From positions 39,944 through 90,366 of the forward strand of contig NZ_BMOS01000007.1 of the NCBI RefSeq assembly GCF_014647195.1: 50,423 nucleotides of DNA, read 5' to 3'. The DNA is from Oceanobacillus indicireducens. Lineage in GTDB: Bacteria; Bacillota; Bacilli; Bacillales; Amphibacillaceae. Positions 2,027-33,276 of this stretch are shown here, piece after piece. How positions within the stretch are numbered: position 1 is the stretch's first letter; every line of letters begins with the position of its first letter. The notes under the pieces are model-generated. The model did not search any database, had not been told where the DNA came from, and worked only from the letters and a program-made list of their open reading frames with translations. The position numbers and the translations under genes were made by a program.

Positions 2027-2128
2027 AATTATCCCCTCCTATCTACCTATTCGACAAGAGGGGACAAAACCCTCCTTTTTACCCATTGTTTTTATTCAGT
2101 TAAGTCAGCTTTTTGTTCTGAATATGAA

Positions 2129-2875: not shown

Positions 2876-2897
2876 CACTTTTCCATATATTACTTTT

Positions 2898-5444: not shown

Positions 5445-5458
5445 TAAAAAAAGACCTC

Positions 5459-10468: not shown

Positions 10469-10732
10469 TTAGGAGTTTTTTCTTTCTTTTTGACTTTCAA
10501 ATATCTCCATAATTTCCTCAGATATTTTATCAGTAGGGACCGTGCCGCTTTCAATTCTTATATGTTCCTTCAATTTATTTGCTTGTTCTTTGCCAAGCAA
10601 TAAATTTATTGCTTTTGCTAAAAGAAGAGGGTTTTCTTCCATTTCACCCAAGATCTCAACCAACTCATAGTTATTTAGGTTTTCTTCTGGTATTTTATAT
10701 TCAAACCCTGAATTTGTTTTTCCTTTAATCAT
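10469..10732 (-). CDS. Tail assembly chaperone, gpG-like
   Basis: An 87-residue acidic, helical protein located between the tail tube and tape-measure genes, the invariant position of gpG. Start ATG at 10732 overlaps the tail-tube stop by 4 nt. The gene ends AGA AAA AAC TCC TAA, so the stop lies one codon after a slippery heptamer. Identification is by position, size and the frameshift signal rather than by strong sequence motif. Confidence 0.8.
10475..10481 (-). promoter_or_regulatory. Programmed -1 frameshift site (A AAA AAC)
   Basis: The heptamer is positioned in the zero frame as AGA AAA AAC, matching the X XXY YYZ rule, and is followed one codon later by the zero-frame stop. Slipping back one base leads directly into the open downstream frame, which has no competing start signal. 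Confidence 0.8.
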
Positions 10733-11310
10733 CCTTCAACCTCTCCCCCGCCATTTGATGATGTTTTTTGAATATATTCATAGTGGGTATTACCTTCTGA
10801 ATCTGGGATTGCTTGAATGGTAGTTTCATATCCAATTGCTTCTGCATCCGCATAGCTGATTTCTCCGATTTCAGATACTTTACCACTAGGAATAACGATT
10901 CGTTTTAGAATGCTACCTTTTAGAATCATATCGACAACCAAGCAGTGTTCCTCTAATTCTTTAGAGTTTGCTTTGATTGTGATTCCGGTATCTAATGTAC
11001 CTGTTACGTTATCTTGGCCATAAACTTCTTTTAATACATCCACATTAGTTGCTTCAATCAGTGTGTAAGTAAATGTATCTTCTTTGCTAGTTTGTACACT
11101 TGCAACAATGTCTCCTCCCCAAGCTGGTATGTTTTCAGACTCTGGAGAGTTTTCATTAGTCATTCCGTCTTCCGATATATAGCCTAAACTCTTAAATGCT
11201 GGATCTAATTCTGTTAATGCATCCGTTGGTAATTTTGTACCTAATACCGCGGAATAAACAGCGCCGCCCACTTTTGGCTTTGCTGTTGAAACGTTTGCTG
11301 CATTACTCAT
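10729..11310 (-). CDS. Major tail tube protein
   Basis: Hexamerises into the tail tube. The 193 residues starting [21 protein letters not shown], with [31 protein letters not shown] in the first half, match the phi13-type major tail protein family (TIGR01603). The length is typical. ATG at 11310 follows GGAGGTAGAAAAT. It sits between the tail terminator and the chaperones, as expected. Confidence 0.92.
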
Positions 11311-11322
11311 ATTTTCTACCTC

Positions 11323-11658
11323 CTAATAATATCTAATATCGTATACCGCTTGATAGCGGTATTCTTTTGTTGTTGTATCTGTAAAGTTGTAATCGCTGTT
11401 GAGGGTAAGGCCTCTTATTTCATCTAATTCAATTAAGCTTTCTACAGCAGTTTTTACTCTTTCATTTAATGCTGCAGCTTCATATAAAGAATCTCCATAA
11501 GATTGGAATGCGAATGTGGCACTTGGTAAATGATTACTTTTCCCGCTAGATGTTTTTTCAAAAACCACATAGGATTCTGTTTGGGCACTCGGTTTTTCAA
11601 GGTGGACAGATTCTGCTAATTTACTTTTTAAATGATTTAAAATGATTAATTCAATCAT
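11323..11658 (-). CDS. Tail terminator/tail completion protein
   Basis: 111 residues (MIELIILNHLKSKLAESVHLE...) with the alternating helix and strand pattern of small siphophage tail-terminator proteins that cap the tail tube. No unique motif is recognisable, so the call rests mainly on its fixed position immediately upstream of the tail-tube gene and on size. Confidence 0.7.
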   Translation of the reverse strand: MIELIILNHLKSKLAESVHLEKPSAQTESYVVFEKTSSGKSNHLPSATFAFQSYGDSLYEAAALNERVKTAVESLIELDEIRGLTLNSDYNFTDTTTKEYRYQAVYDIRYY

Positions 11659-11895
11659 CTACTTCACCGACTTCAAAAGTGTATTGTTTTTTAGGTTATC
11701 GGTTTTTGCTTGTGGAGTATCTGCCCACACTCTAGCGTTGGCCCTGTTCTTCCCCACATAAATATCTTGCTCATATCCTGCCCCACTTCTGTTTCTAATC
11801 CCCGTCGCATAACCCTTCAATACTTTTTGCATATTCCCCGATTTCATTAAATCAGCTACACCTTTACGGTCCAGTTCAAATTTTGTTTTACTCAT
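11659..11895 (-). CDS. HK97 gp10-like head-tail completion protein
   Basis: A 78-residue basic protein (MSKTKFELDRKGVADLMKSG, then SGAGYEQDIYVGKNRANARVW). The start and the following GYE..VG.NRA.. block are typical of gp10-like neck/tail-completion proteins from Firmicutes phages, here in a short form. It overlaps the preceding gene by 8 nt. Confidence 0.72.
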   Translation of the reverse strand: MSKTKFELDRKGVADLMKSGNMQKVLKGYATGIRNRSGAGYEQDIYVGKNRANARVWADTPQAKTDNLKNNTLLKSVK

Positions 11896-12226
11896 AACGC
11901 TCCACCATCACTTTCTTGTTCCAGTCGAGAGGAATGAGGTGATCTATGCCTTCAGTCGGAATACCAAACGTGCGCCATCGTTTACCAAAGAAAAATACCT
12001 CAGCATCTTCCCAATTGTTTGTGTCGTTTTTAGGAATTGCCAAGGTATAGACTGCTTTTTTACCAGTGATATTTAATTGGTTGACAATATCATCAGTTGA
12101 TGTCGGATTTACCAGAACATTATCGACTTCAATTTCTACGTCTTCAAAAATCGGCTGATCAAACGGATCTCTGCCTACTTCCTTTTTATTAATTAGAGTG
12201 ACCGTAATACCCTTAATCAGTGCCAT
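11888..12226 (-). CDS. Head closure protein (head-tail adaptor)
   Basis: 112 residues beginning MALIKGITVTLINKKEVGRD, with FDQPIFEDVEIEVDNVLVNP, a pattern shared by stopper/head-closure proteins of Gram-positive siphophages. An upstream in-frame TTG at 12235 exists, but the ATG at 12226 has the better spacing from GGGGTGA. Overlaps both neighbours, suggesting translational coupling. Confidence 0.72.
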   Translation of the reverse strand: MALIKGITVTLINKKEVGRDPFDQPIFEDVEIEVDNVLVNPTSTDDIVNQLNITGKKAVYTLAIPKNDTNNWEDAEVFFFGKRWRTFGIPTEGIDHLIPLDWNKKVMVERYE

Positions 12227-12608
12227 AGAAATCAATCACCCCATAACGTTGTTTGCGTAACCCTAGAGCCTTTAACTCATCACGTTTGATAAATATTCCA
12301 CCACCTGGTGTTAAAAAAGTTCCAGATACGGTATAACCTAAAGCTGATTCAGAGTATTGAGTCATCGGTTCTTGAGTAGTGGATGTCATTAGTGTTCTTG
12401 CAACAATATCAACTGTTACAGATTTAACGACATCTTTATAAACTACGCTTTCTTCAATCATCTGGTCAATGTCTTTTCCGACTTTTTCAGCTTCAAATCT
12501 TAACCGATTTGAAACATCTGGAAGTAACGCTTCAGCACGAGTCTGTTCTTCTGGTGACATCGGTCTCCACAAATTGATTAAATCTTCTACAGTTGCAAAA
12601 CCTGTCAT
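12213..12608 (-). CDS. Head-tail connector protein, phage Gp19/Gp15/Gp42 family
   Basis: 131 residues starting MTGFATVEDLINLWRPMSPEE and continuing with a helical DVSNRLRFEAEK segment and a C-terminal GGGIFIKRDELKALGL. This is the recognisable pattern of PF09355 adaptor proteins, which bind under the portal and connect it to the tail. ATG at 12608. Confidence 0.85.
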   Translation of the reverse strand: MTGFATVEDLINLWRPMSPEEQTRAEALLPDVSNRLRFEAEKVGKDIDQMIEESVVYKDVVKSVTVDIVARTLMTSTTQEPMTQYSESALGYTVSGTFLTPGGGIFIKRDELKALGLRKQRYGVIDFYGTD

Positions 12609-12619
12609 AGTAACACCGC

Positions 12620-12889
12620 CTATTCAAATGCTTTAGCAATTGCGGCAATTCGCGTATCCTTATTCTTCTTATCTTCGGTGGAAAGTTTAATACCTTGTTC
12701 TTCTGCGAATTTATCTAATTGTTTATTAGTCATTTCTTCTAAGTTGATTTCTTCTTCGACATATTCTTCTGTTTTTGAAACTTCTTCAACAGCTTCCCCT
12801 TTTACACCCGTTACCTCCACCCAGTTTTTGCCTACAATTTTACAGGAGCTATCAACGATAGCCCCAGTTTTAATGTTTTTATACCTCAT
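12620..12889 (-). CDS. Small head-module protein with a HeH/LEM-like C-terminus
   Basis: 89 residues. The N-terminus (MRYKNIKTGAIVDSSCKIVG) is a small strand-rich domain; a Glu-rich linker (EEYVEEEINLEEM) leads to a C-terminal helix-extended-helix segment (TNKQLDKFAEEQGIKL ... DTRIAAIAKAFE) like those found in phage Rho-N/HeH domain proteins encoded after the capsid gene. Role unknown; possibly a capsid accessory or head-completion factor. Confidence 0.65.
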   Translation of the reverse strand: MRYKNIKTGAIVDSSCKIVGKNWVEVTGVKGEAVEEVSKTEEYVEEEINLEEMTNKQLDKFAEEQGIKLSTEDKKNKDTRIAAIAKAFE

Positions 12890-12892
12890 CTA

Positions 12893-13801
12893 TTACCCCT
12901 CCACTACTGCATCATCTTCAATAATACGAGCAAATGCTTCCGGATCTAAGATTCCCCATCCTAAAAATGCTTCGGAACGTAAATATACTTGGTTATATCC
13001 TTGTAAGTCGTTCCCGCTGTTATCTGGATCACCGTATTCAATAACTTTCAATGGAATTTGTTTTGCATAACCCCACTTAAAGCTACCTGCAAAATCACCA
13101 ATGTAAACACGTGAGTTTTTGTCTGTCATTTCTGATACCGTGCGATTTACTTCAACCGGTAAACCATTTATTGAACTTGGAGCATTACCCCAAGCTAAAT
13201 CTGGAAACATTGGATTACCTTGTCGATCCTTTTGTTTTGCCAATGCTGAACGGAATTCTGTGGAAATTGCCATTCCTGTAACATCGGCACCCGACCCATG
13301 TACAACCGCAATAGCCGATTCGACATTTTCATTTGGATCGTCAAGACCATTTTCAGCTTGAATTTCTTGGTCTACCAAATCATCAAAGTTGTTATTTCCA
13401 ATAACTGAAGATGCTTCTCCTGTTCGAGGATTGACTCCGTGGAACACCATTAAATCTAATCCTCGGGCCACTTTACGAGCGAATCCATCATTGAATGCTT
13501 TTAAGATTCCGATTCGTTCTTCTTTATCAACAATCATAAACTCGTCGGAAACACGAGCACCATATTCAATCTTGATTGGAACAATTGTACGTGGTGCTAA
13601 TGAAACACCACCATGTGATTTCTTTCCGCTTTCTGCAACAACATCAATTTCACTGTCCATTGTAAATGTAAATTCCTTTTGGCCGTTAAATGGGATAGGC
13701 TTCTGATTAGATAATCTTGCTATTGACGATTCACCTTGTACTTTATTTACTAAATCTGTGACTAATACCGGATCAAATAATGTTCCTTTGTTTAAAACCA
13801 T
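12893..13801 (-). CDS. Major capsid protein, HK97 fold
   Basis: 302 residues. The order N-arm (MVLNKGTLFDPVLVTDLVNKV), E-loop region (IARLSNQKPIPFNGQKEFTF), spine helix (EERIGILKAFNDGFARKVARGLD) and A-domain (GMAISTEFRSALAKQKDRQG) is that of Firmicutes HK97-type major capsid proteins (phage_capsid family). No long delta domain is visible; a separate scaffold gene precedes it. ATG at 13801 follows GGAGAG. Confidence 0.93.
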   Translation of the reverse strand: MVLNKGTLFDPVLVTDLVNKVQGESSIARLSNQKPIPFNGQKEFTFTMDSEIDVVAESGKKSHGGVSLAPRTIVPIKIEYGARVSDEFMIVDKEERIGILKAFNDGFARKVARGLDLMVFHGVNPRTGEASSVIGNNNFDDLVDQEIQAENGLDDPNENVESAIAVVHGSGADVTGMAISTEFRSALAKQKDRQGNPMFPDLAWGNAPSSINGLPVEVNRTVSEMTDKNSRVYIGDFAGSFKWGYAKQIPLKVIEYGDPDNSGNDLQGYNQVYLRSEAFLGWGILDPEAFARIIEDDAVVEG

Positions 13802-13817
13802 ATTTTATACTCTCCTT

Positions 13818-14270
13818 TTAACTTAGATTTTCTATAATATTTGCATAAGCTTGTTCTTTTTCGTCAAGTTGTTGCGGTTCTGTCGGTTTCAACGGCAATG
13901 GTTGTTTTTTATTCACAAAACCAGCAATTTTCTCAGCATCCGCTTTAATTTCTTCTTCTGTTTCACCGCTAAGTCTTCCTGCTAAATCAAGTGGAATACC
14001 AGCCTGTATTGCGATAGATGTTTTCAAATCTTTTAACTTGTATGTTTCGACTTCTTTCTTTAAATCATCAATACTACTTAATTCTTCTTTTTGGGTATTT
14101 AAAGTGTTTTGTAGATCTGATAATTGTTGTTCTAGTGTAGCATTGGTATTTTTCAATTCTTCATAGTCTTCTGCCGGCTTGGCTGCTTGAATTGCTTTAC
14201 CGTGCTCTTTCATAGTTGCTTCAATTTGTTCATCATTAAGACCTAATTCTTTTAAAAACTCTCTATTCAT
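13818..14270 (-). CDS. Capsid scaffolding protein (minor structural GP20-like)
   Basis: 150 residues, almost entirely helical and charged: MNREFLKELGLNDEQIEATMKEHG, a coiled coil at ~35-85, and a conserved DLKTSIAIQAGIPLDLAGRL block near 90-115 that characterises the phage GP20 scaffold family (PF06810). Scaffold directly upstream of capsid is standard order. ATG at 14270 with GGGAG ten bases upstream. Confidence 0.87.
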   Translation of the reverse strand: MNREFLKELGLNDEQIEATMKEHGKAIQAAKPAEDYEELKNTNATLEQQLSDLQNTLNTQKEELSSIDDLKKEVETYKLKDLKTSIAIQAGIPLDLAGRLSGETEEEIKADAEKIAGFVNKKQPLPLKPTEPQQLDEKEQAYANIIENLS

Positions 14271-15687: not shown

Positions 15688-17094
15688 CTAATATCTAATT
15701 TTTTGCTTCTTAGGCGGCTTGGCTTCTGCACAAGCCCAATGTGCTAGTATCATAGATTCCATTAGTGCAATGTCATTTTCTTCAATCTGTGAGCGGTAAC
15801 CAAAACCTCCACTTGTCCCAATATTTCTCTTATCACAATTCGTGACTACTTGAAATAATGATGGTTGACTCTTATGTTGTATCGTTTGTTGAAATAACGC
15901 TTGCTCAAACATTGCATTCGCCAGGATGATTTCTTTTACAGTCGGTAATACCGGCGCTTTTAATCCCGCTTGCTTCATTGCTTCCGCTAAGATGTTTTGA
16001 CCGTTTGCCCCATCAATTACTACTTGTTGGACATCGGCATTTCTCAAAAAATGTATGATCCATCCATTACCGCTTCTAAGACTTTTACAATCTATCGTTT
16101 CAACGAATACTTTATCATCCACAGTTTTTACAGCAATGCTTAAAGCAACGTTTGTTCCGTCATATCCATATTTAATACCCGCAAATATTTTTCCTGTAAG
16201 CCAAGGCAAAGTATCAGTGTGTAATTCTTTCCATTCGTTTTCGGAGATGGCAGACTTTTGGTTGTACTGGATCCATAAACCTAATCGCTGTATATTAAAA
16301 TCTATATCATCATCGCCAACCTCGGCTTGGATGTTACGCTCAGATACCCTTAAACCTAAACTAGGATTTGCTTGATACCATAAATCTTTATCCCTTACAT
16401 CAGATTGTTTATCTACACTCCATTCAGCCCAGCCAGTATCTTCTGTGCTACCTTGTAGAGCATTGTCTCTTAGACGAGTAAAAACAGTACCGCTAGAAAT
16501 TGGAGTTGGTGGAGTTCCTGTGAAAATCGTTTGTGGGTTAGGACTTGCTGCGATTGTGTACATTAAAGCTGATCGTTGATCGTCTGTATATTCTTGGGCT
16601 TCGTCCACAACTAATAAATCAAAACTTTCTCCTAAACCACCAGTAGAAGTACGTGTTCTGAAATCAATGCGACCACCGCCAATTAACTCGATGCTCTCAT
16701 TACCCCTAGCCTTAATACTTGTGAAATCAACTTGATTTTCATAGCCACTTGCTTCAAGTATTGTTACGAGTCTTTCAAAAGCAGCTTTACTAGTGTTAGT
16801 TCGATGCGCTGTGTGTAAAATTCTTTCACCGTTTTTTAAACCGTGCAACTCTCTAATTGCAACAATCTCATTTTTACCATTTTGACGGGGTACAGCATAA
16901 CCAAAGTTCATATGCACCCAAAGACCGTTTTTATTTCTAGCCATAATTGCATCAACTATAAACTTTTGCCAATCAAAAGCTTTACGACCTGACTTTTCGT
17001 ATAACTCAATGGCTTCATCGCCTAATGAATCGTCATAAGGTAAGATTAATGATTTTGTAGGAGTTTGTTCTCCGATTCTTACTTCTACAGCCAT
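15688..17094 (-). CDS. Terminase large subunit
   Basis: ATP-driven DNA packaging motor with a nuclease that cuts the concatemer. 468 residues. Walker A-like VPRQNGKNE at 69-77, Walker B LVVDEAQE at 161-168, coupling motif FTGTPPTP near 193, and a C-terminal RNase H-like nuclease region starting around GKIFAGIKYGYDGTNVAL. Terminase_1-like family. It lies downstream of portal and MuF genes, the reverse of the usual order, and no small terminase subunit is recognisable in the window. Confidence 0.93.
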   Translation of the reverse strand: MAVEVRIGEQTPTKSLILPYDDSLGDEAIELYEKSGRKAFDWQKFIVDAIMARNKNGLWVHMNFGYAVPRQNGKNEIVAIRELHGLKNGERILHTAHRTNTSKAAFERLVTILEASGYENQVDFTSIKARGNESIELIGGGRIDFRTRTSTGGLGESFDLLVVDEAQEYTDDQRSALMYTIAASPNPQTIFTGTPPTPISSGTVFTRLRDNALQGSTEDTGWAEWSVDKQSDVRDKDLWYQANPSLGLRVSERNIQAEVGDDDIDFNIQRLGLWIQYNQKSAISENEWKELHTDTLPWLTGKIFAGIKYGYDGTNVALSIAVKTVDDKVFVETIDCKSLRSGNGWIIHFLRNADVQQVVIDGANGQNILAEAMKQAGLKAPVLPTVKEIILANAMFEQALFQQTIQHKSQPSLFQVVTNCDKRNIGTSGGFGYRSQIEENDIALMESMILAHWACAEAKPPKKQKIRY

Positions 17095-17112
17095 CTACTA
17101 ACACCCTTTCAA

Positions 17113-17829
17113 TCAACCACTCCATTCCTTTGACCAGACATTTTGCCTGCGTATTTCTTCTGAGTCTCCTGGATAATATTCAACAACACAGCGACACCTA
17201 TCATGTCTGCGATAGACATCATCAGGTACATCTGGATATTTGTAAATCCCTTGCATCGAACGGCACCATTCACAAGGAGGACTACCGTGAGCCGACCTCA
17301 TTATTAGTGGGTTTAATCCTGACTCACCTTGAAATTCAACATTTGCCTTTATCGTGTCATCTACAGTAGTTTGTGTAAAATTAACAATCGGTTCTTGTAA
17401 TATCCAAGCAACATCATCAAATACTTCTTCTGCAACAACTCGATTTATAATACTGTCAATCCTCAATTGATTAACTGGTGGTTCAATACCTCTCAAACCT
17501 AAGCCAACAGATTTGTTTAATTGTTCTTGTATTTCCGCTGATACTTTAGCGACAATGACATGATTATTTTTCAATGTCGGGTCAAGTATTCTTTCGGCAA
17601 TGTTGTAGTACATTTTCCCATCTGGTAGTACATCTGATTTTATGTGCATTTCAAAAGTACGTGCTAATATTTCACCAATCTCAACAGCATATTCATTTGC
17701 TTGCTGGTAAGTTGCTGTTCCATTCTCGATCATTGCACGTATGCTCTTTAATCTTTTACTTTTACTGATTGCATTATTAAAATCACGTTCAATAGCTTCT
17801 AACAATTCCGGGACAATATCAGTTGCCAT
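17113..17829 (-). CDS. MuF-like minor head protein
   Basis: 238 residues. C-terminal SAHGSPPCEWCRSMQGIYKY followed by DDVYRRHDRCRCVVEYYPG is the Cys/His-rich signature of phage Mu gpF-like/SPP1 gp7-like minor head proteins, which bind the portal and are ejected with DNA. The N-terminal two thirds are helical. The start codon overlaps the portal stop (TAATG), so the two are translationally coupled. Confidence 0.88.
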   Translation of the reverse strand: MATDIVPELLEAIERDFNNAISKSKRLKSIRAMIENGTATYQQANEYAVEIGEILARTFEMHIKSDVLPDGKMYYNIAERILDPTLKNNHVIVAKVSAEIQEQLNKSVGLGLRGIEPPVNQLRIDSIINRVVAEEVFDDVAWILQEPIVNFTQTTVDDTIKANVEFQGESGLNPLIMRSAHGSPPCEWCRSMQGIYKYPDVPDDVYRRHDRCRCVVEYYPGDSEEIRRQNVWSKEWSG

Positions 17830-19049
17830 TATTCATCACCTTCAATGCCAGTTAAATCTTGTAAATTATTATTATTAAAATAACCCGGAACGGCTTGATT
17901 AATTTTAATTGCACCATCACCGATTAATGAAATGGTTGATGCATCTGGTTTAAAGACAGGCTCCCATTTTGCTTTGGTATTATATAACTGATTGCGTTTA
18001 TATGGCACATTATCTCTCAATGATGCAGCTAGATAACCTACATTTAAAAAACCAGAACTAAAATCTCGTTGTGCTTTTTCTGCTGCAAGTCTCAATGTTT
18101 CATGACTTGCTTTAATAGCTTCAGCGCTTGATGGGTTGTCAGATGGAAAACCTAAATCATCTAAAGTTAAACCTGTTTCTCCCGCGAATCCAGATGCTGC
18201 AGTTCTTAATTGTTCCACGAACGGTGACATTGAAGGTACATTGAATTGTCCTAGCTTCGGAATATCCCCATCATCGTCTTTTGTGAACTCTAAGAATGAT
18301 GCAACAGTCGCTTTCCAGTTATCCATTGCTTCTGAATCTTGAGACGTACCCACAACATACTTCTGTGGCCACGAATAGAATTCAGCAGTAATGTCAGCAC
18401 GTTCGAGTGTCCGTTTAGCATATTTCTGATAATAAATAGCTGATGGTGTGATTCTCGACCTCCCGAATGGTTTAGTCGAATCCGGACGATGAATAATCGG
18501 CACTAACAATGGAGCAGGCGCACTGTTATCAACCGAATCTGCTAAATCACCATTAATGAAAAGGTCAGTTCTTCCAGTTACGAAATACAATTCTTGGCTT
18601 GGTTTTCCGTATTCATCACGTTCCAGTACCGCATATCCTTCCGACAAAAGCCTTGTAACTGGATCTAATATTCCAGTTGCTTCTGAACCTTGGATAACTT
18701 GTAACCGAGGTAAATTATCCTCACCTTCTGAAATATAAATGAAACTGCATGAATTAATGAGTGCGGATAACTTTGCATCATCAAATAAAATATCTGCACT
18801 ATTCATCTGAAAAATTTCATTGATATTAAAGTTGTCATTTGCAAACTCTCGAAATACTAAACGGTCTGCTAAGCTATCAACTGCTTTTGCTCCCCAACCT
18901 AAAAATGCTCTATATTGTTGTCTTAATCTATCGGGTATTGTGATACCAGGACTAATATCTACATTTTTCATGTCATAAACCTTCTGACGGTACAGTGCAC
19001 CACGTCTATAGACATCTAATTTCTTGCGTAAATAATCGATTCCTTGCAC
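17829..19049 (-). CDS. Portal protein (SPP1 gp6-like)
   Basis: Dodecameric DNA gate at the capsid vertex. 406 residues; GITIPDRLRQQYRAFLGWGAKAVDSLADRL at ~36-65, IHRPDSTKPFGRSRITPSAI near 190-210 and FPSDNPSSAEAIKASHETLRLAAEKAQRDF near 305-335 (the crown/stem helix region) fit the SPP1_Gp6 family (PF05133). Start is GTG at 19049 with AAGGAGTG upstream. Confidence 0.92.
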   Translation of the reverse strand: MQGIDYLRKKLDVYRRGALYRQKVYDMKNVDISPGITIPDRLRQQYRAFLGWGAKAVDSLADRLVFREFANDNFNINEIFQMNSADILFDDAKLSALINSCSFIYISEGEDNLPRLQVIQGSEATGILDPVTRLLSEGYAVLERDEYGKPSQELYFVTGRTDLFINGDLADSVDNSAPAPLLVPIIHRPDSTKPFGRSRITPSAIYYQKYAKRTLERADITAEFYSWPQKYVVGTSQDSEAMDNWKATVASFLEFTKDDDGDIPKLGQFNVPSMSPFVEQLRTAASGFAGETGLTLDDLGFPSDNPSSAEAIKASHETLRLAAEKAQRDFSSGFLNVGYLAASLRDNVPYKRNQLYNTKAKWEPVFKPDASTISLIGDGAIKINQAVPGYFNNNNLQDLTGIEGDE

Positions 19050-19151
19050 GTTTTCACTCCTTCCTAGGGTATAATCAATAGTCGCGCGAGAAAATTTGCA
19101 CAGTGACCGCGTGAAGGGCGAAATAGACGAGAGGGAGGGTGGTATGCCCCC
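19050..19151. other. GC-rich intergenic segment; candidate packaging (cos) region
   Basis: The 102 bp between HNH and portal genes are notably GC-rich for this prophage (G-runs on one strand, GCGCGCG-like stretches) and hold no gene beyond the portal ribosome binding site. In HNH-encoding cos phages the cleavage site usually lies near the HNH gene. No cohesive-end sequence can be proven by eye. Confidence 0.25.
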
Positions 19152-19553
19152 CTATTTTATTTTCCGTCTAATTCTAATCACTGTCTTTTTATTCTCTTGT
19201 TTTTTGTTCGTTTGATTACTGTTATATTCCATCCAATTCATGCTTTGAGGTAAATTTCTATTGCCAATTACTTGTTGCTTCGTCTCATGACCTTGCTTGA
19301 ATATCTTGTCAGACTTCTGTCTGTTGCATGTCCAGTGAGCAAGCTGTAGGTTATCTATATCAGATGGATGTCCATACTTTGCGACTGGAATGATGTGGTC
19401 AATGGTAGCACTCATTGGGTGGGGGGTCTTCAGTGAGAAGTCCACCTGGTGTCCACATATACCACAGGTGTTTTGTGTAGCAAAGATGCGCTTCTTGTTT
19501 CGTTCATAGTTAGCACGGTGGGCACCTTTCCTGTCGGCACGTGAATAAGACAT
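19152..19553 (-). CDS. HNH endonuclease (packaging-associated)
   Basis: 133 residues: a basic N-terminus, zinc-binding CGICGHQV near 30-37 pairing with C-x-R at WTCNRQKSDK, and the catalytic DHIIPVAKYGHPSDIDNLQLAH block (residues ~53-74). HNH proteins next to head genes assist terminase in cleaving at cos sites in HK97-type phages. The gene is the first of the late structural run. Basic C-terminal tail (KTVIRIRRKIK). Confidence 0.9.
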   Translation of the reverse strand: MSYSRADRKGAHRANYERNKKRIFATQNTCGICGHQVDFSLKTPHPMSATIDHIIPVAKYGHPSDIDNLQLAHWTCNRQKSDKIFKQGHETKQQVIGNRNLPQSMNWMEYNSNQTNKKQENKKTVIRIRRKIK

Positions 19554-20822: not shown

Positions 20823-20854
20823 ATAGCACCTCTATATTTAAATAGAAGTGCTAT
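20823..20854 (-). terminator. Terminator of the arpU-recombinase unit
   Basis: Minus-strand stem TAGCACTTCTAT / ATAGAGGTGCTA with a 6-nt loop followed by TTTTTATTTT. The recombinase stop codon lies inside the stem. Confidence 0.82.
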
Positions 20855-21393
20855 ATTCTGAAGTCTTTTATAGCTTTATCCATCATGTCTTGGTTGATTC
20901 CAATGTATCTTAGCGTGATATCTTCGCTGGAATGATTGAATATCTCTTGCAGCAGCGCCGGATCCTTATATTGTTTGTAAAAGTGATATCCAAATGTCTT
21001 CCTTAATGTATGAGTACCGACACTTTCCAAGCTGACATACTCTGCTGCCTCTTTCAATATCTTATATGCCATGCTTCGGCCGATCGGCTTATTTATACCC
21101 TCTCGACTCTTAAACAAGTATTCATGATCTTCCATCCCTTCAATATACTTTTTTAATTCACGCTGCAAGGAAGGAGTCATTGCAATTCTTTTAATTTTAT
21201 CCGTCTTTTGCTCAACGATATTAAAATACGGCTTCTTCACATCTCTAACCCTTAGCTTTAAAATATCGGAAATACGTAACCCGGAATTTATCCCCGTAAC
21301 AAACATCATATAGTTTCTTTCACTTTTTCCCCTCAAATATCTTTTCATTACCCTAATGTATTCAGGGTCTCGGATGGGCTGCACAAAATTCAT
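20851..21393 (-). CDS. Short tyrosine recombinase (catalytic domain only)
   Basis: 180 residues comprising little more than an XerC/D-like catalytic domain: R40 (SGLRISD), a Lys in the EQKTDKIKR beta turn, H128 and R131 (GTHTLRKT), H154 (FNHSS) and the nucleophile Y163 (LRYIGI). The N-terminal SAM-like core-binding domain is missing. Such truncated recombinases follow arpU in many Firmicutes prophages and are unlikely to be the element's integrase, which for a sigK insertion should be a serine recombinase. Possible roles are dimer resolution or late-gene control. Start overlaps arpU stop by 4 nt. Confidence 0.85.
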   Translation of the reverse strand: MNFVQPIRDPEYIRVMKRYLRGKSERNYMMFVTGINSGLRISDILKLRVRDVKKPYFNIVEQKTDKIKRIAMTPSLQRELKKYIEGMEDHEYLFKSREGINKPIGRSMAYKILKEAAEYVSLESVGTHTLRKTFGYHFYKQYKDPALLQEIFNHSSEDITLRYIGINQDMMDKAIKDFRI

Positions 21394-23958: not shown

Positions 23959-25230
23959 TCAATGTCTCAAGTCAGCAAACAAGTTGTATTCTTTGAGGAA
24001 TGCAAGCTCTACAGTCCCAACTTTTCCATTACGCTGCTTCGCAATAATCACTTCGATAATATTTTGTTTTTCTGAACTGGAATCATAGTAATCATCCCGA
24101 TATAAAAATTCGATAACATCAGCGTCTTGTTCTACGCTACCACTATCGCGGATATCGGACATCATTGGTCTTTTATCTTGTCTGTTTTCTACGCCACGGG
24201 ATAGCTGGGATAGAAGATAAACTGGTACATCCATATCTCTAGCAAGCTCTTTCAGACTTCGAGTGATTTCCCCAACTTCGATATTTTTATTTTCATAACG
24301 GCGATCACTGCGAATCAGTTGTAAATAGTCAATCATCACCAAAATATCTTTGTCTGGATAATCTTTTCTCAACTTACTCACTTTAGACCGGATTTCATTA
24401 ACGGTCTGTCCAGCTTTGTCATAGATATGCATGTTCATGTTGCTGAGTATCCCCATCGCATTTGTGAATCGGCTCCAATCGTCCGCATTAAAATATTGCT
24501 TCGGATTTCTCATTTTATGCCCATCAATACGCCCAATCGTGGACAGCATTCGCTTGTTTAATTGATCCTTGAACATTTCCAGCGAAAATATGGCAGAGAC
24601 TCCCCCATTTTCTCCGTGAGCCTTAGCGTGATTAAGCATCTTGGCCGTTTTACCTACGGATGGACGTGCTGCAGAGATGATTAAATCCCCTTTCTGGAAC
24701 CCGTCTAGCATTCTGTTTAAATCTTGAAATCCCGTGTCAATGCCACTAAGACCTGGCTCTTGCTCTTCGATACTCTGATATAACTGGCTCATCGCCTCAA
24801 TGTGATCATAATCATCGTCGTTATTTTCAAGCTCAATTTCATCGTATTTTTCAACGACAGCTGCCAAATCATCCAGGCTGTGAATTTCAATTCCTTGGAT
24901 TTTCCTAGCTTCACGGATTTTCCAAGATTCCAATATGAATTTCTCATAGGCCTTATAGCTTTCTATTCTGGCTACACTATTAATCAAGTCAGATAAATGC
25001 TTTCTGCCGCCAATACGCGATAAATTAGTGTTACCTAATCGGACAACGACAGATACCAGGTCAATTGGTTCGTTTGCTTGCTCGATTTCCCGTAAAGTTT
25101 TAAATATAATTTGATTGTTAGCATTGCTGAAGTGTTTTTCTTGTAAAGTAATTTCTTTAATTAGCTCGCCTTGCTTTAAAACACAGCCAAGCAAGCCGTA
25201 TTCAGCTTCCAGGGTTGCGTCCAACTGCAT
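23959..25230 (-). CDS. Replicative DNA helicase, DnaB family
   Basis: Hexameric 5'-3' helicase for phage replication. 423 residues: N-terminal DnaB primase-binding domain (LEAEYGLLGCVLKQGELI to ~110), linker, then a RecA-like core with Walker A AARPSVGKT near 190, IFSLEM, Walker B-like VMIDYLQLI near 290, and QLSRGVENRQDKRPMMSDIRDSGSVEQDAD near 330-360. ATG at 25230 (a GTG at 25233 is adjacent), overlapping the loader gene. Confidence 0.94.
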   Translation of the reverse strand: MQLDATLEAEYGLLGCVLKQGELIKEITLQEKHFSNANNQIIFKTLREIEQANEPIDLVSVVVRLGNTNLSRIGGRKHLSDLINSVARIESYKAYEKFILESWKIREARKIQGIEIHSLDDLAAVVEKYDEIELENNDDDYDHIEAMSQLYQSIEEQEPGLSGIDTGFQDLNRMLDGFQKGDLIISAARPSVGKTAKMLNHAKAHGENGGVSAIFSLEMFKDQLNKRMLSTIGRIDGHKMRNPKQYFNADDWSRFTNAMGILSNMNMHIYDKAGQTVNEIRSKVSKLRKDYPDKDILVMIDYLQLIRSDRRYENKNIEVGEITRSLKELARDMDVPVYLLSQLSRGVENRQDKRPMMSDIRDSGSVEQDADVIEFLYRDDYYDSSSEKQNIIEVIIAKQRNGKVGTVELAFLKEYNLFADLRH

Positions 25231-25480
25231 CACGCTCCCACTCTACAATGGTTTTTAAAAAGTTTGTATTATGTGCTTCATTCGGTTTAACGATTAGATC
25301 GGACAGCGCTGGAGGAAACTTGTTTTCTAGAACATAGCGCTCAGCATTATTCATGATTACTGCTGGATTTTGGTTTTTTAACAACCTTGCCCAGGTATCA
25401 ATCTTGCTCTGATCAAAGTCAAAGTTTGGATAAGCGTCACTTATTAATTTCAGTACTTCGTAAACTTTTTCTCTGTTCAT
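25202..25480 (-). CDS. Helicase loader (G39P-like loader/inhibitor)
   Basis: 92 residues; WARLLKNQNPAVIMNNAERYVLENKFPPALSDLI is the recognisable core of the SPP1 G39P-type loader family (PF11417), which holds the DnaB-type helicase in an inactive form and delivers it to the initiator. Gene order initiator-loader-helicase with overlapping ends (4 and 29 nt) supports this. Confidence 0.87.
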   Translation of the reverse strand: MNREKVYEVLKLISDAYPNFDFDQSKIDTWARLLKNQNPAVIMNNAERYVLENKFPPALSDLIVKPNEAHNTNFLKTIVEWERDAVGRNPGS

Positions 25481-26277
25481 GACAAATCAAAGTCCTCCTT
25501 GCTTTTACTTTTTGCATTTGTAACTCCTTGAGGTGTTCGTTTGGCAAAATTATTTAAGGGCTCAGCCTCATCGATAAATTTCCTGACATCCTTGTCACGC
25601 ATTAAATCTGCTAATGTGTATTTATGTGTAAACCAGTAGGCATCACTTGAATAAACAGTTGCATAGTTGTCGATTACTTGATAAAGCTGTTCAAGGGAAT
25701 AATCTCTTAATCTAGCTTTTATTGCTGATCGAATGGGATTCGTTATTTTTGTATGTTTAATTATATTTTTAGACAAATAGTGATTGAACAAATCACGGAC
25801 TGTATATTCTTCTTCTTCTTTTTCTTTTTCTTCTTCTTGTGGGCTTATCGTGGACGTATCGTCATACGTATCGTACAAACCCTTGAGTTTACTGTTCTCA
25901 ACACGTTCTGCAACATATGGTATTAAATCTTTATCTTTAACTTCACTCAATTCCGACCGGACACAATCTTCCATTGGTTTTCCACCACGCTTTAAGTTGT
26001 ATCTGCCCCAATTTTTAATGGCTATTTCTCTTGTTTCCTGATTGTAAATAATAATTTTATGGTGATGGATAAAGCGATCGAGTAGTGAGTTGACACTTTC
26101 TATCGAATAACCGATATCAAAAGCTATTTGCTTTTTGGTAATTTGATAGATTCCAACCTGGGTAGTGTTCGGATTCGTTAGAAGATATAAAAAGAACAGT
26201 TTATCTTCTGGTGTCATCTCTTCAACAACTTTTGGATCATTCCAGAAGTCCGTTTCAACCATTCTAAATTTAGCCAA
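25477..26277 (-). CDS. DnaD-like phage replication initiator
   Basis: 266 residues. N-terminal winged helix (MAKFRMVETDFWNDPKVVEEMTPEDKLFFLYLLTN) is the DnaD/phage replisome-organiser type; an acidic linker (EEEKEKEEEEE) at ~150; then a C-terminal conserved phage replication domain (NYATVYSSDAYWFTHKYTLADLMRDKDVRKF) near 205-240. TTG start at 26277 after GGAGGTACATAAA. In related phages the origin lies within or beside this gene, but I see no convincing iteron set. Confidence 0.88.
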   Translation of the reverse strand: MAKFRMVETDFWNDPKVVEEMTPEDKLFFLYLLTNPNTTQVGIYQITKKQIAFDIGYSIESVNSLLDRFIHHHKIIIYNQETREIAIKNWGRYNLKRGGKPMEDCVRSELSEVKDKDLIPYVAERVENSKLKGLYDTYDDTSTISPQEEEKEKEEEEYTVRDLFNHYLSKNIIKHTKITNPIRSAIKARLRDYSLEQLYQVIDNYATVYSSDAYWFTHKYTLADLMRDKDVRKFIDEAEPLNNFAKRTPQGVTNAKSKSKEDFDLS

Positions 26278-26303
26278 TTTATGTACCTCCTAGTGGTGAG
26301 TTT

Positions 26304-26336
26304 AAAGGACCCGGTTAAAGGTCCTTTTTATATGAC
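26304..26336 (+). terminator. Terminator-like hairpin between replication-accessory genes and the initiator
   Basis: AAAGGACC and GGTCCTTT bracket a 10-nt loop, followed by TTTTTATAT on the plus strand; on the minus strand the tail is only TTT. Might weakly attenuate leftward transcription and stop antisense transcripts. Confidence 0.5.
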
Positions 26337-26337
26337 A

Positions 26338-27111
26338 TTAAGCAATAATAGTGATTCTACCATTCTCAATTTCTTCTTTAAGGTGCTCCGACAGATAATC
26401 ACGGACATTAATAATCGCTTGATTCCTCCAAGCTCCACCGTCCGCCTCAAAGATTGCTGCACGCGGACCCCCCTTCATTCTGAAGATAAATTCACTGGAT
26501 GGTTGTTCAATCTCCAAGAACGTCCGGTATGGTATCAATGTGACCGGATTCGGAACCAACACATCATTTTCACTTGACAAGCCACTTCTGATCGTTACAG
26601 CTTGGGAAATGCCATCGTCTCCTGTGTTCTGAACAGTTTCTTCTTTTACGTTACCGATTACTTTAAGAATAAGCCCGCGATCATTAGGCCTGTCTCTGGA
26701 ATCCTCATCCGATACAAAATTAGATTGTAATCCTACGATTAACTCTTCTACACCCTGAAAATGTTCATAATTAAAATCGGGAACAATCGCTCTAGCTGTT
26801 ACTAGGGTTTCTCGTCCGCCTTCACTGTCCAGTAACCCCTTTAAAAGTACTGTTTTTTCATCGTAAACTTGTATGAATAGATCATGGTCAATTCTTTCAA
26901 TATTTGCTTGCACATAATCTAATAATCCGGTTAATGTATTAATGTTTAACGTCTCTTCTGCCCGGTAAATCCTTGGTTTAATTTCCCTATGCAGACCACT
27001 TTCGTCCACTACAAAATTACGTTCTATTCCATCACCGTCCACCATGTCAACAAATCTTTCTTGCGGCTTAATACCACCATTTATAAGATATTGAAGTGCT
27101 TCTTTAATCAT
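26338..27111 (-). CDS. Conserved phage early protein, 257 aa
   Basis: Soluble mixed alpha/beta protein; segments such as YVQANIERIDHDLFIQVYDE and a C-terminal GGPRAAIFEADGGAWRNQAI recur in early regions of Firmicutes prophages. I do not recognise a named catalytic domain; a DUF2303-like relationship is possible but not demonstrable by eye. Forms a pair with the next upstream gene (2-nt gap) just before the replication genes. Confidence 0.65.
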   Translation of the reverse strand: MIKEALQYLINGGIKPQERFVDMVDGDGIERNFVVDESGLHREIKPRIYRAEETLNINTLTGLLDYVQANIERIDHDLFIQVYDEKTVLLKGLLDSEGGRETLVTARAIVPDFNYEHFQGVEELIVGLQSNFVSDEDSRDRPNDRGLILKVIGNVKEETVQNTGDDGISQAVTIRSGLSSENDVLVPNPVTLIPYRTFLEIEQPSSEFIFRMKGGPRAAIFEADGGAWRNQAIINVRDYLSEHLKEEIENGRITIIA

Positions 27112-27113
27112 TA

Positions 27114-27536
27114 TTAATTGCCCTCCCGTAAGTTAATAACTTTCTTTTCTTTTGTTTTTTCCTCTTCATCGACTGGATCACCGACGTCCGTTTTCTGTTG
27201 CAAATCATCATCAAAATATGTTTGTCCTGGAACGTCAGACTTAAGTTCTCTAGCTTCAACTCTTCCGGATTTGATATCTTTTCCGGTGAGAACCGTCGTT
27301 GATACTCCTTTGATTTTTGCTAGTTTAGTTGCAAAGTCACTGTTTACTTTAATTGTATGGCGGTTTTCATCTGGAACAAACTCTAGTTTTATAGTTATAG
27401 TCCGCTTGTGCTGTGCTTCCGTGTTTTTGTCATGGATGTTGTCAAAAACTTTCTGTAATTCGATGTCTAGTTTTTCTTGAATGGATCCATTGCCAAGTTG
27501 CGATAAAGGTAGATCAATATTTTTTGTTTGAGACAA
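27114..27536 (-). CDS. Phage early protein of the type often labelled replication terminator protein
   Basis: 140 residues from a TTG at 27536 placed nine bases after AGGAGG (an ATG at 27554 overlaps that site). SQTKNIDLPLSQLGNGSIQEKLDIELQKVFDNIHDKNTEAQHKRTITIKL is the pattern of small Firmicutes phage proteins carrying that label; I know of no proof of the function. Acidic C-terminal tail. Confidence 0.65.
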   Translation of the reverse strand: MSQTKNIDLPLSQLGNGSIQEKLDIELQKVFDNIHDKNTEAQHKRTITIKLEFVPDENRHTIKVNSDFATKLAKIKGVSTTVLTGKDIKSGRVEARELKSDVPGQTYFDDDLQQKTDVGDPVDEEEKTKEKKVINLREGN

Positions 27537-27600
27537 TCTATAGTCCCTCCTCATGAGCTTATTTGATATGATTCAAAAGAATATGGGCTCTGCATGTCAC

Positions 27601-29717: not shown

Positions 29718-30104
29718 ATGAGCATAGGTAAAAGAATTATTGAATTACGTGAAAATAAAAATTGGAGTCAGCGTGAATTAGCGAGAAGAGTTAATCTTAA
29801 TGTGAGTGTAATGAATCGAATTGAATCTGAGGATAGACCAATAAAAGACCATGAACTTGATAAATTGGCAACTGTCCTAGATGTCACTACTGATTATTTA
29901 CTAGGAAGAGATAGTAACCACGGCGAAGAATATGATTCACTGTACGAAATCAACCAGTTACTTAAAAAATACAACATAGATCAATCTGGATTTTTCGACA
30001 TAGAGAAATGGAAATCGATGGGACCTGAAGAAATTAAGCAATTGGAAAGTTATTTCCAATTTATCGTGTCTGAGGCAGAGAAGAAGAATAAACAGCAAGA
30101 CTAA
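29718..30104 (+). CDS. CI-type prophage repressor (XRE family)
   Basis: 128 residues. N-terminal helix-turn-helix at ~16-40 (WSQRELARRVNLNVSVMNRIES), then LDVTTDYLLGRDSN, a turn typical of Firmicutes phage repressors; the C-terminal part is helical and acidic and lacks a LexA-like protease domain. Induction would therefore run through ImmA-type cleavage rather than RecA autocleavage, consistent with immA downstream. Divergent from the Cro-like gene. Ribosome binding site is weak (AGTGAG). Confidence 0.87.
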   Translation: MSIGKRIIELRENKNWSQRELARRVNLNVSVMNRIESEDRPIKDHELDKLATVLDVTTDYLLGRDSNHGEEYDSLYEINQLLKKYNIDQSGFFDIEKWKSMGPEEIKQLESYFQFIVSEAEKKNKQQD

Positions 30105-30181: not shown

Positions 30182-30249
30182 TTATGGATTTAGGGACTTA
30201 TTACAGCAGTATTATTATCAGTCAAATAGAAATTTTAGGGGGAATATTT

Positions 30250-31035
30250 ATGCCTGTATTTAATATTTATCAATTAAATAATGCTGATCAATTAGACCTT
30301 TTCTTCTCTAAAAGTGATGGCACTTTAGATTTGAAAAAAGTCTCAGAAAAAATGGAAGACTTTATAGCAACCAGTGAAGATGGAGAGATTAATGGTGAGG
30401 GATTCCTAAACATTAATACAACGATAATAGAAGATAAGAAAATCATTGAATCAATTGCTACAGGACAGGGGTCATTGGGATATTACAATCAAGCGTATAT
30501 TTCTAATGAAGAAGTAACTTCAAATAGGAAGCAACAAACCTTTTATAGTAAATCAAGAGTGTTCATTACTGAAGATAACTTTCTCATAATACTATTCGAT
30601 GATACTACTGAAGAGAAAATAAAGAGGAATATTAAAAACCTTGTTGAATCCGTTGGCTTTGAAGTTACAAACTTCCGTTTATCAGATGCAATAATGAGGA
30701 ATATAAGAAATGACTATACATGGACTGAAGTCAGATTAGAAAGAGTCGATAACGAAAGTGATAGTACAAAAAAAGTCTATTATGAAATTGATGCTGCTGA
30801 CAATGATAATGATTCCCTAATTGACAAAATCTATCGTGACCAAGGAAAAATGGTTCAAATATCCTTTGAAATGCCTTATAATAAAATAAAAGATGGTCCG
30901 AATTTTATTACAGTAAAGCTATATAAGAACGACCACAGGATTGTAATTAACGCAAGTGAATTTCCTAAATACGAAGATATGAAAACTTTTATAATTCACT
31001 TAACAGACATCTTAATCAAATTGCAAAAAAAATAG
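30250..31035 (+). CDS. Unrecognised protein, first gene of lysogeny-module cassette
   Basis: 261 residues starting MPVFNIYQLNNADQLDLFFS at the ATG at 30250, behind AGGGGGAAT (an upstream in-frame ATG at 30184 lacks a site). No signal peptide or membrane segment. The middle SRVFITEDNFLIILFDDTTE and the C-terminal VKLYKNDHRIVINASEFPKY followed by a helix have counterparts in the next protein (AFLIEDNFFIETNN; FISIYRNGKISINSNDEDE), suggesting divergent paralogues. I do not recognise a family. AT-rich relative to the late genes, bracketed by terminators, and in the slot where phages carry exclusion or abortive infection genes. Confidence 0.75.
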   Translation: MPVFNIYQLNNADQLDLFFSKSDGTLDLKKVSEKMEDFIATSEDGEINGEGFLNINTTIIEDKKIIESIATGQGSLGYYNQAYISNEEVTSNRKQQTFYSKSRVFITEDNFLIILFDDTTEEKIKRNIKNLVESVGFEVTNFRLSDAIMRNIRNDYTWTEVRLERVDNESDSTKKVYYEIDAADNDNDSLIDKIYRDQGKMVQISFEMPYNKIKDGPNFITVKLYKNDHRIVINASEFPKYEDMKTFIIHLTDILIKLQKK

Positions 31036-31048
31036 GGAGGTGGAGAAT

Positions 31049-31672
31049 TTGAACTTTACCTTACATAAGTTAAAAGCTGAAAGCTTTCCAAAACAAAAAG
31101 GCATAATAAAAAAAAGTTGGCAATTATTTTCTAAGAAGGAAGAAGATGTTTCCTTGTTTAATTGGAATGAAATAGAAAAAAATAAATTCCATATTGTTTT
31201 CCATATCTCTGATGAATATATAAGTAGGACGAAAAAAGGTGGAAATGAAAAAGTTCTTCCTTTTTCTCAGTATATTAATGCTTTTCTTATCGAGGATAAC
31301 TTTTTTATTGAAACAAATAATAAAAATTATTTGTCCTTAATAATAAATTTTCTAAAGACTGAGCATAAATTAGATCCTATTTCAATGGAAATTGACAATG
31401 AACTCTTATTAGAAATTATAAAACAAACAAATGGATTCTTGAAAAAGTTTGAATATGTGAACGATGAAGACAATGACTTTTTTGAAGAAAATTTAAAGTA
31501 TGAGACTTTGATAAAAATATTAAACACTCCTGGAAATGAATTTGAATTCGTTAACTTTTTATATAAAAACACATTTATTTCAATTTATAGAAATGGAAAA
31601 ATATCTATAAATTCTAATGATGAAGATGAACTACTACAAATAATCGAGGAAGTATCGAATGCAGTTTCTTAA
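31049..31672 (+). CDS. Unrecognised protein, second cassette gene
   Basis: 207 residues from a TTG at 31049, eight bases after GGGAGG (GTG at 31040 overlaps that site). Lys/Asn/Ile-rich, soluble. Residues ~80-140 and the last ~45 residues parallel the first cassette protein in order and spacing of strand and helix blocks. Begins 13 bp after the first gene and overlaps the third by 14 nt, so all three are probably co-translated and may form a complex. No known domain. Confidence 0.72.
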   Translation: MNFTLHKLKAESFPKQKGIIKKSWQLFSKKEEDVSLFNWNEIEKNKFHIVFHISDEYISRTKKGGNEKVLPFSQYINAFLIEDNFFIETNNKNYLSLIINFLKTEHKLDPISMEIDNELLLEIIKQTNGFLKKFEYVNDEDNDFFEENLKYETLIKILNTPGNEFEFVNFLYKNTFISIYRNGKISINSNDEDELLQIIEEVSNAVS

Positions 31673-32252
31673 CGCTGTAATACAGTTCTTAATAATATTT
31701 GGGACAGCTCTACTAGGTTTATTCTTAGGAGAAGGAAACACCTATCTCGTAATAATGATATCTGTAATCATTTTAGAAGCTGTCATAATTGCATACCTAA
31801 TAAATAAAATTACTAAAATTAAAGAAGAGATGTTATCAACTAGAGAAACATTTACTTCGGAAATATTATCAAAAAAGTTAAAGGGAGAAAATACAGTTGA
31901 TATTACAGTCTTTCCAAAGAAATCAACCGAATTTTCAACAAATAAATACACTGAATTAACTCTTGTAATCAATACTCCTATTGAAGTTGGAAATAACTTT
32001 GATATTCAAATTCAGTCAGACAAAGAAATCAATTTAAAAGTAGCCGAATTTAATGAAATTAAAGGTATACTTCATGCTGGTAAGTATCTGTATTTTATCA
32101 AAAATAATTATATACATAAAAAGATGGGGAAATATCTGAAATGTCACTTAGCAATTAAGCTAATTAGTGAACATAACAGTATTAACTTAGAAATAACTGC
32201 AAGTGATCAAGAGTTACATGGAAGCAAGAGTTTTATTATTAACATTAAATGA
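31659..32252 (+). CDS. Unrecognised membrane protein, third cassette gene
   Basis: 197 residues. Two membrane helices at ~3-23 and ~27-47 joined by a tight turn, a short coiled-coil stalk (ITKIKEEMLSTRETFTSEIL), then a soluble domain of about 120 residues rich in strands (ELTLVINTPIEVGNNFDIQI, LAIKLISEHNSINLEITASD) that looks like an immunoglobulin-like beta sandwich. By orientation rules it is probably cytoplasmic. A membrane effector or anchor for the two upstream proteins is a reasonable inference. No family recognised. Confidence 0.72.
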   Translation: MQFLNAVIQFLIIFGTALLGLFLGEGNTYLVIMISVIILEAVIIAYLINKITKIKEEMLSTRETFTSEILSKKLKGENTVDITVFPKKSTEFSTNKYTELTLVINTPIEVGNNFDIQIQSDKEINLKVAEFNEIKGILHAGKYLYFIKNNYIHKKMGKYLKCHLAIKLISEHNSINLEITASDQELHGSKSFIINIK

Positions 32253-32341: not shown

Positions 32342-32845
32342 TTGTCCTACACGAAATCAGCTTTAGAAGATTGGGTAAATACACGGTATAGGCGTATGGG
32401 CTTAAAAACGCCACAGGATATCGATTTAGAGCGCATTGCACGTATTTATAGCATTTACCTACATTACAAGCCAATGGACGCTAGATACGACATATTCGGA
32501 CGATATCGGTCTATTGTATTAGATTCAAGATCTACTATTGAAGAACAACGTGAACAATTTTTCCATGAACTCTGCCATATCCTCCGGCATGTTGGTCATC
32601 AGTCCATGATGCCGAATGCATTTCGTGAACTGCAGGAATGGGATGCGAATCTTTTTACAATGTATGCTGCCCTTCCCTACTACATGGTTAAGGAATATGA
32701 TTTCGAAGATCCTTTATTGATTCAAAATTTGGCTAACGATTTTAAAGTAACGGAAGAATTGTGTGAGAAGAGAATGGACCATATAAAAAGAAATATAATG
32801 TTCCAATCCCAGCTTGTTGCGGAGAGCAAAACGTTATATACTTAA
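32342..32845 (+). CDS. ImmA/IrrE-type metallopeptidase (prophage induction)
   Basis: 167 residues with FFHELCHILRHVGH, HExxH at 75-79, and an acidic downstream ligand candidate (QEWDANLF), the arrangement of ImmA (DUF955). ImmA of ICEBs1 cleaves its repressor to derepress the element; here it would act on the CI-type repressor. TTG start at 32342 behind AAAGGATG. It is the last phage gene before the border, as the ImmA-like yqaB is in the B. subtilis skin element. Confidence 0.88.
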   Translation: MSYTKSALEDWVNTRYRRMGLKTPQDIDLERIARIYSIYLHYKPMDARYDIFGRYRSIVLDSRSTIEEQREQFFHELCHILRHVGHQSMMPNAFRELQEWDANLFTMYAALPYYMVKEYDFEDPLLIQNLANDFKVTEELCEKRMDHIKRNIMFQSQLVAESKTLYT

Positions 32846-32889
32846 AATAACGTTGATAAATCAATGTTTAGGCGCACTGCCCTATAGAC

Positions 32890-32902
32890 ATAGCAATTGA
32901 AA
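32890..32902. other. Prophage/chromosome junction (right attachment site) within sigK
   Basis: The frame reading into the sigK fragment changes here: SigK normally reads C-I-E-N-E-I-L-M-H-L-R, whereas the window reads [10 protein letters not shown] after an in-frame stop at 32869. Shared bases TGAAATCCTC suggest the crossover at about 32895-32900. In B. subtilis the skin junction uses a short AATGA core in the same codons. Confidence 0.7.
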
Positions 32903-32907
32903 TCCTC

Positions 32908-33276
32908 ATGCATCTCCGCGCCTTAAAAAAGGTAAAGAAAGACGTCTCTCTCCACGACCCCATCGGTCAGGATAAAGAAGGCAATGAAATCAGTCTGATC
33001 GATATTTTAGAGGCTGAAAATGAAAACATCATCGAATATATCCAATTGAACATGGAGATCGATAAGATGCAACATTTCTTCAAAGTTCTCGATGAACGGG
33101 AAAAAGAAGTAATCATCTACCGATATGGACTTCACGATAAAAATGAAATGACCCAGCGAGAAATTGCAAAAAAATTAAACATATCAAGAAGCTACGTTTC
33201 CCGCATTGAGAAACGTGCTTTAATGAAGGTTTTCCATGAGTATTACCGACAGGAAAGAAGTAAACAGAACGACTGA
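32908..33276 (+). CDS. sigK: RNA polymerase sigma-K factor, C-terminal half (spoIIIC-like part of a split sigK)
   Basis: 122 residues from the ATG at 32908: [20 protein letters not shown], then [16 protein letters not shown] (region 3) and [48 protein letters not shown] (region 4 with its -35-binding helix-turn-helix). Near-identical in pattern to the C-terminal half of Bacillus SigK, the late mother-cell sporulation sigma factor. Regions 1-2, needed for core and -10 binding, are missing, and no ribosome binding site precedes the ATG. It is functional only if the prophage is excised and the two halves join. The alternative, a decayed duplicate, is less likely because the frame is intact. Confidence 0.88.

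Follow-up and report, generated by a model that had tools for sequence, protein, structure and literature searches.

We propose that a siphophage prophage of Oceanobacillus indicireducens occupies sigK by means of a skin-type unit, that its excision in the mother cell would rebuild sigK, and that a LexA-linked route would allow it to leave after DNA damage. On the sequence evidence given here we consider this reading probable. The gene in question is probably one that the bacterium needs to complete spore making. The window, by which we mean the whole stretch of 50,423 nucleotides that was analysed, covers positions 39944-90366 of its contig (C7); a window position is the C7 position minus 39943. 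The roughly 20-kb stretch to the left of the window, which carries the recombinase cassette, is called L011. Features are collected in Table 1.

Table 1. Features of the element and its ends. Positions are those of the window unless C7 or L011 is given.
Feature	Position	Strand	Evidence or remark
sigK N-terminal half	frame C7:35889-36302; profile match C7:35934-36296	+	TIGR02846 positions 2-123, 193.5 bits
Large serine recombinase, 499 aa	frame C7:36299-37798	-	PF00239, PF07508, PF13408
Skr-like ORF, 55 aa, TTG start	C7:37728-37895	-	overlaps recombinase start by 71 nt
Divergent ORFs of 105 aa (C7:38069-38386) and 116 aa	L011:18069-18750	+	no Pfam/NCBIfam match
Endolysin (cut at window edge) and holin	1-1033	-	phrog_435 E 7.8e-58; TIGR01593 E 9.7e-24
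Tape measure, distal tail, tail protein, zinc carboxypeptidase (M14)	2965-10085	-	phrog_58, 33, 3558, 4722; PF00246
Scaffold, major head, adaptor, head closure, neck, tail terminator, major tail	10469-14270	-	phrog_233, 10, 137, 501, 387, 123, 117
HNH endonuclease, portal, minor head, large terminase	15688-19553	-	phrog_338, phrog_104, phrog_2494, phrog_9
Replication: DnaB-like helicase, DnaA/DnaD-like initiator, replication terminator-like	23959-27554	-	phrog_19, phrog_6251, phrog_997
Repressor-like HTH gene	29718-30104	+	PF01381 E 1.2e-11; phrog_8 transcriptional regulator
Three accessory genes	30184-31035, 31040-31672, 31659-32252	+	no Pfam/NCBIfam/PHROGs match at E 0.001
ImmA-type metallopeptidase gene beside attR	32342-32845	+	PF06114 E 4.3e-14; phrog_87 metallo-protease E 4.3e-20
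attR	32874-32900	+	phage arm GCACTGCCCTATAGACATA (32874-32892), then core GA 32899-32900
sigK C-terminal half	open frame 32872-33276; SigK residues from 32899; ATG 32908	+	TIGR02846

The two halves of sigK and the attachment sites

A sequence-only reading of the window had claimed that the C-terminal half of SigK follows the last phage gene, and profile searches agree. The ORF that begins at the ATG matches TIGR02846 (SigK) at positions 115-227 of 227 (E 1.9e-51, 174.8 bits) and carries sigma-70 region 4 (PF04545, E 1.2e-16); query residues 3-125 are 93% identical to SigK of G011, the sister species used as the reference for SigK comparisons. The same reading had placed the start of homology at about 32,898 and an in-frame stop at 32,869. 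We find that phage sequence gives way to SigK sequence exactly at the core GA and that an in-frame TAG occupies 32869-32871. It had also held that the N-terminal half is absent from this side and that the place to look was left of position 1. Both that half and the 499-aa large serine recombinase are indeed present on this contig, 2 to 4 kb to the left of the window. The outcome is thus the opposite of an intact sigK elsewhere with neither N-terminal half nor recombinase at the other end: both are present, and no full-length sigK was found in the whole genome, either by a search with the C-terminal half or by a SigK profile search. The only other strong match to the profile, at C1:186816 (264 bits, positions 17-227), fell under the cut-off of 298.65, and we read it as SigE because another sigma gene follows at C1:187631.

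The gene is cut within the codons for C-I-E-N-E, and TGAAAT is common to both ends of the element. When the flanks were joined at the core by a script, they gave an in-frame SigK of 237 aa, identical to that of G011 at 221 of 237 residues without a gap. Both halves are still open and conserved. With the halves at the two ends of the element and the flanks rejoining in frame, the claim that a prophage splits sigK stands. In all 27 other genomes of the genus that were searched, the best match to the C-terminal half lies in a frame of at least 236 aa, compared with 134 here; sigK is uninterrupted in them, and the insertion therefore looks recent.

From core to core the element measures 36,581 bases (about 36.6 kb), a count that includes a run of 123 N (C7:39821-39943). 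This run lies inside the element and separates the window from the left sigK junction; the endolysin gene runs into it. Such a run could point to an assembly that has joined two unrelated pieces, an artefact that we regard as extremely unlikely: the arms at the two ends are mirror images and belong to a single attachment site, no intact sigK was found in the 3.87-Mb genome at a rated completeness of 99.97%, and other genomes show the same architecture.

The arms of attR and attL (phage arm TATGTCTGTAGGGCAGTGC) mirror each other around GA at 23 of 30 positions, and GA is likely to be the crossover dinucleotide. We tried 14 elements and left out one (G186); in the 13 with both junctions readable, the exact GA was always the best of nine centrings, with scores of 14 to 25 of 30 positions (mean 19.8). 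Shuffling brought the mean down to 11.5 (maximum 19). Pairing the arms of one element with those of another gave a mean of 15.4, since the arms are related. Additionally, a phage contig from IMG/VR (L036) has a free attP centred on GA, and phage MMB025 has one centred on TC, the complement of GA, each with 16 of 21 positions.

The recombinase cassette and its control sequences

The recombinase gene adjoins the N-terminal half of sigK, inside the element, and encodes a full-length protein with resolvase, recombinase and zinc-ribbon domains. At E<=1e-60 it had five non-self matches in 159 genomes of the family (own included) and 21 in 397 genomes of the order (own included), a total of 26 genomes. 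We assign it to the SpoIVCA type, since in 24 of these 26 the SigK profile shows that the N- and C-parts of sigK are separated at the same point. The exceptions are G275, where SigK is intact, and G496, whose recombinase is 34% identical and whose sigK is cut elsewhere. Both halves lie on one contig and in one orientation, 2.0 to 58 kb apart, in 19 of the 24 split genomes; they are on different contigs in three (G211, G267, G424) and inverted in two (G142, G528). In the family-wide search with the C-terminal half, frames shorter than 170 aa appeared, among the matches listed, in our own genome, in G035, G045, G046, G104 and G142, which are the five family genomes with the recombinase, and in an extra copy in G140. 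In a tree of recombinases, our protein groups with those of G142, G104, G046 and L036 (support 99/98); the last is 60% identical to it.

These searches gave several further observations. The inverted halves lie at G142:C2:352000-370000 (L066) and G528:C7:447000-464000 (L067). Here, recombination at the sites would rebuild sigK by inversion rather than deletion, and the element would be kept; alternatively, the inversions could reflect rearrangement or assembly error. A 6.8-kb element is 98.3% identical between G275 (L080, 9503-16253) and G400 (L081, 1497-8253), genomes of two families. The G275 copy lies outside sigK, at the core TAATGAAAT, and the pair appears to be a small skin-like element that is still moving. 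The extra copy in G140 (L068, 4254-4607) is a second, inverted C-terminal half about 4 kb from an intact sigK. In G496 (L079, 1110-5105), sigK is split at an earlier position; the element there measures about 3.3 kb and its recombinase is only 32-34% identical, apparently another way of using this gene.

Excision of skin in B. subtilis needs Skr, described as a 64-aa ORF that overlaps the start of spoIVCA by 101 nt in another frame (PMC6957869). An ORF with the same arrangement and relative frame is present at our locus and at 25 of the 26 homologues, the exception being L065; L036 and MMB025 have it as well. Between nine close pairs, which are not independent, the differences ahead of the overlap number 58, 40 and 86 by codon position. 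By its position and relative frame, as described for Skr, the 55-aa ORF is a candidate Skr-type directionality factor.

Directly upstream of this ORF lies GTACAAG-N9-CATATCAT (L011:17916-17939, minus strand). We scored this motif with GGACAAG, which we take to be the consensus of the SpoIIID box. Of the 26 loci scored, 21 (our own among them) have a box resembling GGACAAG ahead of CATA at p<0.05, with a spacing of 9 bases in 19 and 10 in two, although these p-values are optimistic, as the loci are related and the motif had been spotted by eye in most of them before scoring. Five loci missed this level (L052, L054, L055, L056, L060), and three without an anchor were left out of the scoring (L044, L065, L038). 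The four loci scored without prior sight of the motif (L047, L048, L062, L063) had p-values of 0.004 to 0.028. Eight control recombinase loci were tried and two left out (L007, L009); in the six that could be read, the 300 nt upstream did not contain the motif and no Skr-like ORF was seen, though L033, L035 and L037 have open stretches of 42, 46 and 71 residues at that position. The ORF and the motif upstream of it, common to the clade, would make it easy to locate the directionality factor and the site that controls it.

We read the motif as a putative SpoIIID box with a mother-cell -10 element. At our locus it would leave a very short leader. A precedent is the RDF gene of C. difficile, with a start site 14 bp before the start codon; its SpoIIID box, reported as centred 46 bp before the start site, is laid out unlike ours (PMC5025042). 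The promoter of B. subtilis spoIVCA, placed more than 200 bp upstream of its start (PMC6957869), counts against the short-leader reading. A plain sigma-E promoter scan of the 26 upstream regions, with hand-set weights, gave nothing significant (own p 0.15, lowest p 0.053).

A second kind of control sequence lies close by. GAACN4GTTC is the SOS box of B. subtilis (PMC4234289), and two exact copies occupy the gap that separates the Skr-like ORF from the divergent 105-aa ORF (L011:17990-18001 and 18041-18052), with 0.13 expected in the 20-kb stretch. All 12 bases of the first agree with those of a box that precedes the host lexA match by 134 nt. No SOS box was found within the window (0.60 expected) or in the stretch around host recA, and only 2 of 25 other upstream regions have one. 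A sigma-70 scan of the cassette region gave two matches, with 1.8 expected by chance. The SOS boxes may serve the Skr-like ORF, the divergent 105-aa ORF or both. The 105- and 116-aa ORFs, left of the window, downstream of the boxes and divergent from the Skr-like ORF, are possibly an SOS-controlled pair. Together, the SOS boxes and the SpoIIID-like/CATA motif suggest control both by DNA damage and by the mother-cell programme.

The SOS boxes also admit another reading. The element could be an ordinary inducible prophage that uses the sigK site and excises only after DNA damage, in which case lysogens would sporulate poorly or not at all. The two boxes beside the cassette, the non-significant sigma-E scan of our locus and the apparently recent insertion fit this explanation. 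We nevertheless consider it unlikely, because elements in many split-sigK genomes, some of them only 2-9 kb long, share the Skr-like ORF and the SpoIIID-like/CATA motif with ours. We prefer mother-cell excision combined with a LexA-linked exit.

The phage body

PHROGs naming covered 38 of 44 chosen ORFs of the window and identified siphophage genes for packaging, for head and tail, and for lysis. This agrees with the sequence-only reading, which had called the phage structurally complete, with two qualifications: no small terminase subunit was named among the 38 ORFs scanned, and the endolysin gene meets the N stretch. Both could be taken as signs of an immobile remnant that can no longer excise, in a host that has lost late sporulation. 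This we hold to be quite improbable, given a full-length recombinase with all three domains, two well-formed junctions and sigK halves that are open and conserved. The ImmA-type gene that had been noted at the phage border was also recovered (Table 1).

The body is that of an r1t-like siphophage with a complete-looking gene set. Among named records, r1t-like Lactococcus phages come nearest, with 59% for the terminase and about 70% for the major head protein, and among seven uncultivated contigs listed gene by gene, the closer ones keep the head-tail block in the same order. Relatives of the phage body in viral contigs (75 loci, many of them fragments) had no match to the recombinase or to the sigK halves. 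Only 5 of 47 proteins of our element were matched in other sigK elements (20 loci searched), so that the bodies are mostly not shared, and a scan of 10 ORFs in the G186 element revealed the terminase, portal and major head proteins of a different phage. Thus, phages of different make-up, as well as small elements, use related cassettes at the same codons.

Other genes of the body deserve mention. A second recombinase gene, for a 180-aa tyrosine integrase (20851-21393, minus strand; PF00589, phrog_216), adjoins a transcriptional activator gene. Of two genes between the holin and the fibre (1115-2926, minus strand), one has a weak MtlR match and the other encodes a QueC-like protein (PF06508, E 4.8e-07). 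One accessory gene, at 31040-31672, had a single marginal PADLOC match (Csx20, E 0.0024); as the PADLOC matches were only marginal, we rejected a defence reading of the accessory genes.

A model, and comparison with known systems

Our model has two parts. During sporulation, the mother cell would express the Skr-like ORF and the recombinase under sigma-E and SpoIIID. Excision of the phage would follow there, sigK would be rebuilt and sporulation completed, while the forespore would retain the prophage; sporulation would require the excision of the element. After DNA damage, LexA would leave the two SOS boxes beside the cassette, which would assist phage exit and entry into the lytic cycle. Excision, phage production and both controls are what we infer from the arrangement of genes and sites.

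A stronger claim, for which we put the chances at somewhat under even, is that skin has a living counterpart in this element. It would then be an infectious siphophage, inducible through the SOS response, with a skin-type recombinase-Skr cassette that answers to LexA as well as to the mother-cell programme; a single switch would serve virion production and the completion of sporulation. If this is true, the element would correspond in nature to the SPbeta-skin chimera that has been built (PMC6957869), and its relatives of 2-14 kb would be phages of this sort that have eroded until hardly more than the switch is left. Here a cassette of skin type, placed at the same codons, comes with a full set of siphophage genes; the 27 other genomes searched in the genus have an uninterrupted sigK. 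Compared with the relatives of 2 to 14 kb that have the same cassette, it makes the loss of phage genes after capture by sporulation testable.

Skin itself is among the closest systems by description (PMC6957869, PMC4191935): sigK is split, a large serine recombinase lies beside the N-terminal half, and, as described for Skr, a small ORF overlaps the recombinase start in another frame. Mother-cell control, which we propose for our element, would also be as in skin. Unlike skin, which is described as a defective prophage without a stress-inducible promoter (PMC6957869), our element has a full phage gene set and SOS boxes. In the literature searched, which covers few subscription journals, we found, judging by title and abstract, no survey of Skr-like ORFs over such elements and no report of SOS boxes at a skin-type cassette.

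The skinCd element of C. difficile (CD1231, RDF CD1234; PMC5025042) also lies in sigK and is excised by a serine recombinase together with an RDF that is made in the mother cell. It differs in that the RDF gene is described as separate from the recombinase (PMC5025042), and its attB is reported in a different region of sigK (PMC6957869). SPbeta, in spsM of B. subtilis, is described as an active prophage that is excised on DNA damage and sporulation alike (PMC4191935), as we propose here; its target gene (spsM), recombinase (SprA) and RDF (SprB) are different.

Last, infectious phages of sigK have already been published. Alicyclobacillus phage MMB025 is reported as an infectious phage integrated in sigK (PMC13141910; record PV686781). 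Its integrase is the best phage match to our recombinase (47% over 72% of the query) and it also carries a Skr-like ORF, but it is described as a phage of 105 kb with a contractile tail. A temperate phage of Clostridium perfringens, phiS63, is said to integrate in sigK (cited in PMC13141910). As these phages are described, the element reported here would join their kind.
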